NCBI RefSeq assembly: GCF_000299935.1
Contig: NZ_AMRL01000003.1
Location: forward strand, 62,001-126,000
Direction: 5' to 3'
DNA length: 64,000 nucleotides
Origin: Oceanibaculum indicum P24
GTDB lineage: Bacteria > Pseudomonadota > Alphaproteobacteria > Oceanibaculales > Oceanibaculaceae
A model generated the notes under the pieces. It did no database searches and was not told the origin of the DNA. It was given only the letters and a program-made list of their open reading frames with translations. Positions 1,540 to 6,224 of the stretch are shown here, piece after piece. Each line of letters opens with the position of its first letter. The stretch's first letter is position 1. Both the position numbers and the translations under genes were made by a program.

Positions 1540-1654
1540 GGCCCGAACGCTCGCTTGGCAAGGAGGTTACGCAAGAGATTGCGACCGCGCGGGATAGTGC
1601 CGCGCCGCCCGGCATCCCGCAAGAGGACAAATGTAACTGCGACGCCGCACCCGC

Positions 1655-1682
1655 TTGACACACCAAGGCGGCGCATTAGAGT
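1655..1682 (+). promoter_or_regulatory. Predicted sigma-70 promoter of thrS
   Basis: A perfect -35 box TTGACA (1655-1660) is followed after 16 bp by TAGAGT (1677-1682, four of six matches to TATAAT). It lies 76 bp upstream of the thrS ATG and points towards it. Confidence 0.5.
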
Positions 1683-1758
1683 TGCAGCCCTTTTGCCGCG
1701 CTGCGGCAGAAGCCTTTTACAATGCCCTTTCAGCAACCCAAGCGGAACGCGACAGATC

Positions 1759-3672
1759 ATGGTTTCCATCACGCTTCCCGACGGCAGCGTCAAACAGTTC
1801 GAAGGCCCGGTCACGGGCGCGGACGTTGCTGCGTCGATCGGCGCCGGCCTGGCAAAGGCCGCGCTCGCCATCAAGGTGAACGGCGACGTGAAGGATCTGG
1901 CCAGCACTATCACCGCGGATTCCCGCATCGAGATCGTGACGACCAAGCACCCCGACGCGCTGGAGCTGCTGCGCCATGACGCCGCGCATGTGCTGGCCGA
2001 GGCGGCGAAGGAGCTGTATCCCGACGTGCAGGTGACCTTCGGCCCGGCGACGGAAACCGGCTTCTATTACGATTTTGCCCGCGACGAGCCGTTCACGCCG
2101 GAGGATCTGGAGAAGCTGGAAGCCAGGATGCGCGAGATTGTCGAGCGCAACGAGACGATCACCCGCGATGTCTGGAGCCGCGATCAGGCGGTCGCCTATT
2201 TCGAATCCATCGGCGAGAAGTACAAGGCCGAGCATATCGGCAATATTCCCGCCGATGAGGATATCTCGGTCTATACGCAGGGCGCCTTCACCGACCTGTG
2301 CACCGGCCCGCACCTGCCTTCCACCGGCAAGCTGGGCAAGGCCTTCAAGCTGCTGCGCGTGTCCGGCGCCTATTGGCGCGGCGACGCCAACAACGACCAG
2401 CTGCAGCGCGTCTATGGCACCGCCTTCGCGACGAAGGAGGAGCTGGAGGCTTATCTGCTGCAGGTCGAGGAAGCGGAAAAGCGCGACCATCGCCGCATTG
2501 GCCGCGAGATGGACCTGTTCCATATCCAGGAAGAGGCTGTCGGCAGCGTGTTCTGGCACCCCAAGGGCTGGACGCTGTACCGCGCGGTCGAGGCCTATAT
2601 GCGCCGCAAGCTGGACGCCGCCGGCTATGTCGAGGTGAAGACGCCGCAGCTGATCGACCGTGCGCTGTGGGAGGCCTCCGGCCACTGGGAGAAGTTCCGC
2701 GAGAACATGTTCACGGTGGACAGCCAGGACGACCGCGTGCTGGCGATCAAGCCGATGAACTGCCCCGGTCATGTGCAGATATTCCGCCAGGGTCTGACCA
2801 GCTATCGCCAGCTGCCGATCCGCATGGCGGAGTTCGGCGCCTGCCACCGTTACGAACCGTCAGGCGCGTTGCACGGCATCATGCGGGTGCGCGCCTTCAC
2901 CCAGGACGACGCGCACATCTTCTGCACGGAAGACCAGATCACCGACGAGACGATCCGGTTCTGCGCGCTACTGCAGGGCATCTACAAGGATTTCGGCTTC
3001 ACCGAAGTGAAGGTGAAATTCTCCGACCGTCCGGAAGTGCGCGCCGGCGACGATGCGATCTGGGACCGCGCGGAAGGCGCCCTGAAGGACGCGGTCGAGG
3101 CGGCCGGCCTGCCCTACACGCTGAACCCCGGCGAAGGCGCCTTCTATGGCCCGAAGCTGGAATTCGTGCTGCGCGACGCCATCGGCCGCGACTGGCAGTG
3201 CGGCACGCTGCAGGTCGATTTCGTGCTGCCGCAGCGCCTTGATGCCTCCTATATCGGCGAGGACAGCCAGAAGCACCGGCCGGTCATGCTGCACCGGGCG
3301 ATCCTGGGCTCGTTCGAGCGCTTCCTCGGCATCCTGATCGAGCAGTATGCGGGCAAGTTCCCGCTCTGGCTCTCGCCGGTGCAGGTGGTGGTCGCGACCA
3401 TCACCAACGAGGCCGATCCCTATGCCGAGGAGGTCGCGGCGACGCTGAAGGCCGCCGGCATCCGGGTTGAAACCGACCTGCGCAATGAAAAGATCAACTA
3501 CAAGGTGCGCGAGCACAGCCTGGCCAAGGTGCCGGTATTGCTCGTGGTCGGCCGCCGCGAGGCGGAGGAGCGCAAGGTCGCGATCCGGCGTCTGGGCGGC
3601 GACAAGCAAGAAGTGCTTGCGCTTGAGGACGCACTTCATAGACTTAAGGAAGAAACGCAGCCGCCGGCCTGA
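1759..3672 (+). CDS. thrS: Threonine--tRNA ligase (ThrRS)
   Basis: This 637-residue class II aminoacyl-tRNA synthetase charges tRNA-Thr in the cytoplasm. The domains are in canonical order: an N-terminal TGS domain (about residues 1-60, [11 protein letters not shown]), an editing domain of the second-additional-domain type (about 65-225), the catalytic core with the zinc-site motif MNCPGH near residue 335 and motif 2 around CHRYEPSG, motif 3 ([13 protein letters not shown]), and a C-terminal anticodon-binding domain. The ATG at 1759 was chosen because the TGS domain begins exactly there, as in the family. The frame is open far upstream, but that extension has no homologous look. infC follows. 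Confidence 0.97.
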
Positions 3673-3696
3673 TGGCCGGACCCGGCTGCAAAAGCC

Positions 3697-3741
3697 CGTT
3701 GCCGTATGGGAAGGCGGCAACGCGGTATCTTTTGCCTTCCC
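3697..3741 (+). promoter_or_regulatory. Candidate H-type RNA pseudoknot in the infC leader
   Basis: Two perfect stems interleave. Stem 1 pairs 3697-3704 (CGTTGCCG) with 3715-3722 (CGGCAACG). Stem 2 pairs 3708-3714 (GGGAAGG), inside the loop of stem 1, with 3735-3741 (CCTTCCC). Loop lengths of 3 and 12 nt are sterically reasonable for an H-type pseudoknot. If instead stem 1 does not form, stem 2 gains one pair (3715-3734). The structure ends 8 nt before the infC Shine-Dalgarno. The pairing is seen directly; the regulatory role is inferred. Confidence 0.45.
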
Positions 3742-3749
3742 GATCATAC

Positions 3750-3763
3750 GGAGGTGTTAAATA
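3750..3763 (+). promoter_or_regulatory. Shine-Dalgarno and AUA initiation codon of infC
   Basis: GGAGGT (3750-3755) is followed after five bases by ATA (3761-3763). The codon just upstream in the same frame is the stop TAA (3758-3760), so translation of IF-3 cannot begin earlier. The next possible start (CTG at 3836 or GTG at 3842) would delete the conserved N-terminus. Confidence 0.8.
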
Positions 3764-4297
3764 GCTCGTTTCCAACCAGATGCCGCGCCCAGCAAGGATG
3801 GTCCGCGGGTCAATGAAGATATCTCAGCCGACACGCTGCGCGTGATTGGCGCGGATGGGGAAAATCTTGGGGTCATGGCCCGGCGGGACGCACTACGTGC
3901 CGCTGACGAGGCTGGCCTCGATCTCGTGGAGATCTCGCCCGGTGCGGTGCCGCCGGTCGTCAAGATCCTCGACTACGGCAAGTTCAAGTACGAAGCGCAG
4001 AAAAAGCGCAACGAAGCGCGCAAGAACCAGAAGGTCATCGAGGTCAAAGAGATCAAGATGCGCCCGAACATCGACGATCATGACTATGACGTCAAAATGC
4101 GCAGCGTGAACAAGTTCCTCAACGAAGGCGACAAGGTGAAGGTCACCATGCGCTTTCGCGGCCGCGAAATGGCGCACCAGGACATCGGCATGAATGTGCT
4201 GATGCGGGTGAAGGACGATGTGGAGGAAGTGGCCAAGGTCGAACAGCATCCCAAGCTGGAAGGCCGCCAGATGGTCATGGTGATCGCGCCGCGCTGA
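3761..4297 (+). CDS. infC: Translation initiation factor IF-3
   Basis: IF-3 binds the 30S subunit, blocks premature 50S joining and rejects non-canonical start codons. The 178-residue product has the N-terminal domain ([20 protein letters not shown] and the DYGKFKYE region), the lysine-rich linker and the C-terminal domain ([23 protein letters not shown]). I start it at ATA 3761, because an in-frame stop immediately precedes it, a perfect Shine-Dalgarno sits five bases away and the N-terminal residues [17 protein letters not shown] look normal for alphaproteobacteria. A rare start codon is known from E. coli infC (AUU), where IF-3 represses its own translation through it; the same control is inferred here. 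It lies downstream of thrS as in E. coli. Confidence 0.93.
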
Positions 4298-4324
4298 GGC
4301 GCGCCGACACCCCGCCACACGGCC

Positions 4325-4353
4325 TTGCTTTCCGGCCACGCACTCTGTATAAA
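4325..4353 (+). promoter_or_regulatory. Predicted promoter of rpmI-rplT
   Basis: TTGCTT (4325-4330) and TATAAA (4348-4353, five of six matches) are separated by 17 bp. The element lies between infC and rpmI, about 100 bp upstream of rpmI, so the ribosomal-protein genes may be transcribed independently of infC. Confidence 0.5.
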
Positions 4354-4362
4354 CCGCCTTCC

Positions 4363-4378
4363 TCAGGCTACGGCCTGA
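4363..4378 (+). promoter_or_regulatory. Stable UACG-loop hairpin in the rpmI leader
   Basis: TCAGGC-TACG-GCCTGA forms a perfect 6-bp stem closed by C-G around a UNCG-type tetraloop. It would lie within a few bases of the 5' end of a transcript from the TATAAA box at 4348. It may protect the 5' end or take part in ribosomal-protein autoregulation; neither is shown. Confidence 0.5.
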
Positions 4379-4453
4379 TGGGGCAAGGCCGCGCCATGGC
4401 TTGTAGGGCATGCCTGGCTGGCCACTGTGAACCCGTAATGATGTGAGGTTGAA

Positions 4454-4654
4454 ATGCCCAAGATGAAGACCCGGAGCGGGGCGAAGAAGCGCTTCCGCCT
4501 GACCGGCAGCGGCAAGGTGAAGATGGCCGTTGCCTTCAAGCGCCACGGCATGCGCAAGCGCCCGACCAAGATGCTGCGTCAGCATACCGGCACCAAGATC
4601 ATGAGTGCCCAGGATGCTGCCCGCGTCAAAAAATACTTCCTTCCGAACGGCTAA
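4454..4654 (+). CDS. rpmI: 50S ribosomal protein L35
   Basis: The 66-residue, strongly basic protein begins [13 protein letters not shown] and contains the conserved [14 protein letters not shown] stretch of bL35. L35 is a structural protein of the large subunit. The start ATG has a GAGGT Shine-Dalgarno five to six bases upstream. rplT follows 11 bases after its stop, the universal rpmI-rplT pairing. In gammaproteobacteria and Firmicutes L20 represses this pair; the long leader here would allow similar control, but no L20-site mimic can be proven by eye. Confidence 0.97.
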
Positions 4655-4665
4655 GGAGAAGATAG

Positions 4666-5031
4666 ATGGCACGCGTCAAGCGGGGCGTCACTTCCCACGC
4701 CCGTCACAAGAAGGTTCTGGATCTCGCCAAGGGCTATCGCGGCCGTGGCAACAGCAGCTACCGCATCGCGCTGGAGAAGGTCGAGAAGGGGCTGCAATAT
4801 GCCTATCGCGACCGTCGCAACAAGAAGCGCGACTTCCGCGGTCTGTGGATTCAGCGCATCAACGCAGCCGCGCGCATGCACGGCCTGCCCTATTCCAAGT
4901 TCATGGACGGCATCAAGAAGGCCGGCATCGACATCGACCGCAAGGTCCTGTCGGACATCGCCACGCGCGAGCCGGATACCTTTAAGTCGCTGGTCGAGCA
5001 GGCCCAGGCCGCCCTCGCCAGCAACGGCTGA
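4666..5031 (+). CDS. rplT: 50S ribosomal protein L20
   Basis: The 121-residue product matches bL20 from end to end. It has the basic N-terminal tail [15 protein letters not shown], the long helix [19 protein letters not shown] and the C-terminal globular domain ending [17 protein letters not shown]20 is an early-assembly protein of the 50S subunit and often represses its own operon. An AAGGAG Shine-Dalgarno starts in the last bases of rpmI. A hairpin with a short T-run lies 60 bp downstream, before pheS. Confidence 0.97.
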
Positions 5032-5090
5032 CCAACCGTTGTGTCGCCTTGCGGTCCCGCCAGGGGATCGCGCCGGCGATTAATGTGACA

Positions 5091-5123
5091 AGAGGGGCGG
5101 TCCTTCGGGGCCGGCCCTCTTTT
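5091..5123 (+). terminator. Intrinsic terminator or attenuator between rplT and pheS
   Basis: A 13-base stem (5091-5103 with 5108-5120, one G-G mismatch and one G-U pair) is closed by a TTCG loop and followed by TTT. It ends 24 bp before the pheS start codon. There is no phenylalanine-rich leader peptide upstream, so pheM-style attenuation is not supported. Confidence 0.6.
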
Positions 5124-5147
5124 CGTATCGGGAAGACGGGACTAACG

Positions 5148-6224
5148 ATGGAAGACCTCAACCGACTGCGCGACGAATTGCTGGCCGAGGTAGGCCAGGC
5201 CGTCGATCTGGAGGCGCTGGACCGCGCCCGTGTCGCCGCGCTTGGCAAGAAGGGCCGCATCACCGAGCTGATGAAGCAGCTGGGCGGCCTCGATCCCGAT
5301 GCCCGCCGCCAGGCCGGCCAGGATCTGAATCTGGTGAAGGACGCGGTGGCCGAGGCCATCGAGGCGCGCAAGACCGGCCTTGCCGATGCCGCGCTGAACG
5401 CCCGCCTCGCCGCCGAGCGGATCGACGTATCGCTGCCGCCCCGGCCGGAGCAGCGCGGCTTCATCCACCCGATCAGCCAGGTGATGGACGAGCTGACGGC
5501 GATCTTCGGCGAGATGGGCTTCGCCGTCGCCGAGGGCCCGGACATCGAGGACGACTTCCACAATTTCGGCGCGCTGAACATCCCGCCGGAGCATCCCGCC
5601 CGGCAGGAGCATGACACCTTCTACCTGCCCGACCGCGCAGACGGGGCGAAGATGGTGCTGCGCACCCACACCTCGCCGGTGCAGATCCGCACCATGCAGA
5701 AGGCCACGCCGCCGATCCGCATCATCGCGCCCGGCCGTACCTACCGCAGCGACCATGACGCCACCCATTCGCCGATGTTCCATCAGGTCGAGGGGTTGGT
5801 GATCGACGAGAAGACCCATATGGGCCATCTGAAGGGCTGCCTGATCGAATTCTGCCGCGCCTTCTTCGGTGTGGACGATCTGCCGGTGCGCTTCCGCCCC
5901 AGCTATTTCCCCTTCACCGAACCCTCGGCGGAGGTCGATATCGGCTGCACCCGCAAGGGCGGCGAGCTGACCATCGGTGCGGGCGACGACTGGCTGGAAA
6001 TCCTGGGTTCCGGCATGGTGCATCCGCGCGTGCTGGAGAATTGCGGCATCGATTCCTCCAAGTATCAGGGCTTCGCCTTCGGCATGGGGATCGAGCGCAT
6101 CGCCATGCTGAAATACGGCATTCCCGACCTGCGCACCTTCTATGACAGCGATCTTCGCTGGCTGAGACATTACGGCTTCGTGCCGCTGGACGTACCGACG
6201 CTGACCGGGGGGCTGGCCCGATGA
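5148..6224 (+). CDS. pheS: Phenylalanine--tRNA ligase alpha subunit
   Basis: This 358-residue class II synthetase subunit holds the catalytic core of the alpha2-beta2 PheRS. An N-terminal coiled coil for tRNA binding (about residues 1-90) precedes the core, which shows the conserved [10 protein letters not shown] start, the motif 2 region ([23 protein letters not shown]) and motif 3 ([14 protein letters not shown]). The ATG at 5148 was chosen over upstream in-frame codons because it gives the standard N-terminus and lies after the intergenic hairpin. The stop overlaps the pheT start in an ATGA junction, indicating translational coupling. Confidence 0.96.

Follow-up and report, generated by a model that had tools for sequence, protein, structure and literature searches.

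Organization of the infC locus

The window, a stretch of 64,000 nucleotides of Oceanibaculum indicum P24, carries infC, the gene for translation initiation factor IF-3 (IF3), downstream of thrS and upstream of rpmI and rplT (Table 1). A frame that reads as pheS comes after rplT, and the neighbor set thrS, rpmI, rplT, and pheS matches that of Escherichia coli. The true start of thrS probably lies later than the beginning of its open frame. The infC product scores 253.7 bits against the NCBIfam model (cutoff, 60) and covers positions 1 to 70 of 70 of the Pfam N-terminal domain, IF3_N, and 1 to 85 of 86 of the C-terminal domain, IF3_C. Both domains exceed their curated cutoffs, as in a full-length IF3, and the protein shares 61% identity with E. 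coli IF3 across 164 residues. A preliminary description, made from the letters of the window, had read a normal IF-3 N terminus from ATA onward, and the fit to the profiles over the whole length of the frame bears this out.

Table 1 Features of the thrS-infC-rpmI-rplT region (coordinates are those of the window)
Feature	Coordinates	Strand	Remarks
thrS open frame, gene upstream of infC	1555-3672	+	TIGR00418, 699 bits for 1759-3669
Putative hairpin or H-type pseudoknot, genus conserved	3698-3741	+	S1, 3698-3703/3716-3721; S2, 3708-3714/3735-3741
Shine-Dalgarno sequence of infC, GGAGGT	3750-3755	+	5 bases 5' of start codon; invariant in 4/4 genus genomes
In-frame stop codon TAA	3758-3760	+	Directly 5' of start codon; invariant in 4/4 genus genomes
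Predicted AUA start codon of infC	3761-3763	+	Kept in 4/4 genus genomes
infC, translation initiation factor IF-3	3761-4297	+	178 aa with initiator; TIGR00168, PF05198, PF00707
First canonical in-frame codon, GTG	3842-3844	+	Codon 28 (ATA = 1); not favored as start
rpmI (L35)	4454-4654	+	TIGR00001
rplT (L20)	4666-5031	+	TIGR01032

infC lacks a canonical start codon

The spacer between GGAGGT and ATA consists of five bases, GTTAA (3756 to 3760), the last three of which are an in-frame TAA that excludes any in-frame start further upstream. From ATA, the frame stays open for 178 codons, ATA included, up to a stop at 4295 to 4297, and the earliest ATG, GTG, or TTG in it is the GTG at 3842. GTG at 3756 was ruled out as the infC start; it is in a different frame. 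On rereading, the letters given in the preliminary description for the stop, the ATA, and the GGAGGT five bases upstream were all correct, and its remark that no other start codon exists before residue 26 agrees with a first canonical codon at position 28.

When both strands of the window were searched, GGAGGT-N4-9-ATA occurred a single time. The looser pattern GGAGG-N4-9-AT[ACT], with 100 or more open codons behind it, was found at 11 sites; infC is the only one of these that lacks a canonical start both upstream and in the 27 codons downstream. It is a gene with an AUH codon behind a Shine-Dalgarno sequence and no canonical start that would yield the whole protein. We conclude that infC has no normal start codon and almost certainly begins at AUA, as judged from sequence.

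The stretch GGAGGTGTTAAATA is identical to the letter in all four genomes of the genus (the window and three others). Most of codons 2 to 12 vary among the four genomes, exclusively by synonymous changes, while ATA is constant; the region 5' of the Shine-Dalgarno sequence is far less conserved, except for an element in the thrS-infC gap. This purely synonymous variation is direct evidence for translation from codon 2 onward. Together with the TAA directly before ATA, it limits the start to ATA or a codon right behind it; the codons there are not start codons.

AUA is the usual infC start in Alphaproteobacteria

IF-3 was detected in 230 of 240 genomes sampled across Alphaproteobacteria and in each of 41 relatives, near and far. 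We examined infC 5' ends in 157 genomes (loci L001 to L054, L071, L074, L075, and L081 to L180), scoring every candidate start by its Shine-Dalgarno sequence and spacing and then judging doubtful loci by eye. The automatic call was wrong or unsure at about twenty loci, with a low match score, no Shine-Dalgarno sequence, or two candidates. It gave 99 ATA, 31 ATC, 11 ATT, 4 ATG, and 3 TTG starts and none at 9 loci; the curated counts are 101 ATA, 32 ATC, 11 ATT, 7 ATG, and 2 TTG, with 4 loci left without a call (L152, L156, L157, and L162). Loci reassigned by eye were L038 and L071 (to ATA), L115 and L147 (to ATC), L028 (to TTG), and L158, L167, and L180 (to ATG). A near-cognate start, AT[ACT], is conserved in 144 of the 157 class genomes.

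A further 80 named loci comprised 59 ATA, 12 ATT, and 5 ATC starts, one CTG, one ATG, and two without a call, one of which (L255) is ATC by eye; two of the 80 are duplicates (L226 of L012 and L284 of L268). ATA is found here in Rhodobacterales, Sphingomonadales, Azospirillum, Acetobacterales, and SAR116. For 63 other Pseudomonadota, the automatic call alone returned ATT in 23, ATC in 21, ATA in 12, GTG in 1, and none in 6, so that ATA dominance marks the class, not the phylum. As a positive control, E. coli K-12 under the same reading yielded its annotated ATT with GGAGG.

The comparison of infC 5' ends thus finds ATA in 4/4 genus genomes and 101/157 class genomes, and shows AUA, as predicted from these genomes, to be the usual infC start in most Alphaproteobacteria, not an oddity of one genome. 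The argument that AUA is even rarer than AUU as an initiator, and the case for autoregulation therefore clear, was misleading: within the class, infC starts with AUA more often than with any other codon, and an AUA start of infC has already been mapped in Staphylococcus aureus by retapamulin profiling (PMC13009471).

Several loci depart from the common pattern. In Roseomonas sp. GC11 (L230), the infC start is apparently CTG; close relatives have ATA. Twelve Hyphomicrobiales loci (L231, L235, L249, L259, L262, L274 to L276, L279, L283, L288, and L300) have Arg codons directly behind ATT (IRRP...) and lack the Ala codon usual after ATA. An ATG start is seen at the Geminicoccales locus L296 and also at L099 and L137, which have similar N termini (MATAQREEYRVN type); these three are natural cases in which start-codon feedback would be expected to be missing.

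ATA is held at the start codon

Within these infC genes, isoleucine is encoded by ATC (1,061), ATT (255), and ATA (48), the last making up 3.5% (48/1,364), and in seven window genes only 2 of 142 isoleucine codons are ATA. ATA thus stands at the start in about two-thirds of genomes yet is the rarest isoleucine codon internally, which argues that it is held as a start codon. A quick IF3 tree of 135 rows, unrooted and weakly resolved with many open forks, places ATT within one Hyphomicrobiales clade nested among ATA rows, whereas ATC is scattered; row L071, in a wrong frame, is badly placed. The minimum number of start-codon changes across the 135 rows is 22. We infer that ATA is the ancestral state of the infC start.

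We also compared initiator tRNAs (matches L303 to L351, from genomes G001 to G040 and others). The anticodon arm reads AGG-CTCATAA-CCT in the alphaproteobacterial matches, with the exception of one divergent second hit (G022), and GGG-CTCATAA-CCC in the four other Pseudomonadota searched; A-U replaces the first G-C pair of the anticodon-stem triplet in the class. A search of the window's own genome gave no initiator tRNA match, probably owing to an assembly gap. As a simple cause of AUA versus AUU, the initiator tRNA was rejected: the A-U variant is present also in families whose infC starts with ATT and therefore leaves the choice of AUA unexplained.

Proposed IF3 feedback through AUA and its alternatives

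The start codon of E. coli infC is AUU, and autocontrol is lost when it is replaced by AUG (Butler et al., 1987, as cited in PMC9845219 and PMC5472188; for IF3 autocontrol, see also Sacerdot et al., 1996, as cited in the same two papers). At the third base, IF3 accepts Watson-Crick and G-U pairs in vitro but rejects pairs weaker than these (PMC10158994), and AUA mismatches the anticodon CAU at this base. Given the infC precedents and this mismatch, the simplest reading is that the familiar IF3 loop operates here through another near-cognate codon. fMet-tRNA would initiate infC at the AUA on a perfect Shine-Dalgarno sequence; initiation there would increase with a scarcity of IF3 relative to 30S subunits and decrease with an excess of it, forming a homeostatic loop. 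We regard such a start, with homeostatic repression by IF3 like that at the E. coli AUU, as very likely; the start is strongly supported by comparison of genomes, and the repression is proposed by analogy. Autoregulation, as put forward in the preliminary description, is a fair extrapolation from the E. coli precedent; the literature accessible to our search yielded no demonstration of IF3 feedback at AUA in any alphaproteobacterium. The ATG exceptions (the Geminicoccales locus and some reduced genomes) indicate that the feedback, if real, is dispensable. A bolder version, in which the class tunes the feedback to AUA specifically, perhaps with its unusual initiator tRNA, one clade has been retuned to AUU, and a few lineages have dropped the loop via AUG, is speculative, and we would not expect it to hold.

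An AUA start could also set nothing more than a low constitutive rate, with no IF3 feedback. AUA and AUU reporters reach roughly 10 to 30% of AUG in S. aureus (PMC13009471), and the order of translation in Listeria is ATG > ATA > ATT (PMC13068326); weakness alone could explain the selection, and a class-wide weak start could simply serve to keep IF3 low. On the other hand, IF3 selects against near-cognate starts in E. coli, repression by IF3 has been described for a GTC start in Streptomyces (PMC5472188), and the IF3 of the window has, as noted above, 61% identity to that of E. coli. We consider a purely constitutive start rather unlikely.

Slightly less probable still is that infC in the genus is controlled mainly by the element in the thrS-infC gap rather than by the start codon, for example through L20 binding or through termination or processing of the thrS transcript. 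The gap is 88 bases long, and the element ends eight bases 5' of GGAGGT. All 13 of its pairs are kept in 4/4 genus genomes, with one double change from G-C to A-U, and the four genus members rank 1, 2, 3, and 5 by pseudoknot score among 228 upstream regions. A terminator-like hairpin was called at 3697 to 3722, and as an alternative to the pseudoknot the element may be a simple hairpin followed by a terminator-like tail. These pairs come from four close relatives only, however, and their covariation does not clearly exceed a shuffle control (74 of 500 shuffles are as high). An Rfam scan of 3400 to 5300 with E values up to 1 returned no matches, the L20 leader model included, and the leader folded as one piece was no better than shuffles (z, 0.12). 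Pseudoknot scores of at least 34 occur in 7.0% of real upstream regions versus 1.8% of shuffles; a class-wide pseudoknot upstream of infC was nonetheless rejected, since high scorers outside the genus differ in place and shape. Unlike AUA, the element was not seen across the class.

Initiation at GTG 3842, giving an IF3 shorter by 27 residues, is highly improbable. This GTG is the first in-frame canonical codon, and the short form still fits both IF3 domains, but it would lose the first 12 of the 70 positions of IF3_N, residues that are conserved in relatives (RVN..I); moreover, codons 2 to 12 evolve as coding sequence, and the invariance of GGAGGTGTTAAATA would be left without a reason. Finally, that ATA is a sequencing error for ATG, one of two findings that the preliminary description had named as decisive against its reading, has a negligible chance; nothing was found in its favor, and it is already refuted by the same letters, ATA, in the three other genus genomes and by ATA in genomes across the whole class.

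Comparison with known systems

Textbooks already describe near-cognate starts of infC and autocontrol by IF3, and the AUA start of infC in S. aureus is likewise already known; new here is the predicted preference for AUA at infC throughout the class, of which we found no prior statement in a literature search that took in few subscription journals. The poor-start-codon design of infC appears to have been retained throughout a class that uses a codon other than the textbook one. The natural variants AUA, AUC, AUU, and AUG can be used to test IF3 feedback, for which codon swaps are straightforward, and gene callers limited to ATG, GTG, and TTG would misplace the IF3 start in such genomes. The pifC gene of Rhodobacter sphaeroides is also an alphaproteobacterial IF3 gene, whose start codon may, reportedly, already be described by Babic et al. 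(1997; cited in PMC2268962), and infC is said to be included in a survey by Gvozdjak and Samanta (2020; cited in PMC9845219) of bacterial genes that prefer non-AUG starts.

Streptomyces infC has a near-cognate start, as in the window, with another third base (ATC) and in another phylum (PMC5472188). S. aureus infC shares with the window the AUA codon and an extended Shine-Dalgarno sequence; it belongs to a distant phylum, and its start was mapped experimentally, whereas that of the window is placed by comparison. The S. aureus authors, too, suggest autoregulation (PMC13009471). E. coli infC differs from the window in its AUU codon and in a thrS-infC gap of 3 bases rather than 88, and the feedback demonstrated there is extended to the window from precedent. 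The two genes are orthologous and share the neighbors thrS, rpmI, rplT, and pheS, an AUH start behind a strong Shine-Dalgarno sequence, and no canonical alternative.
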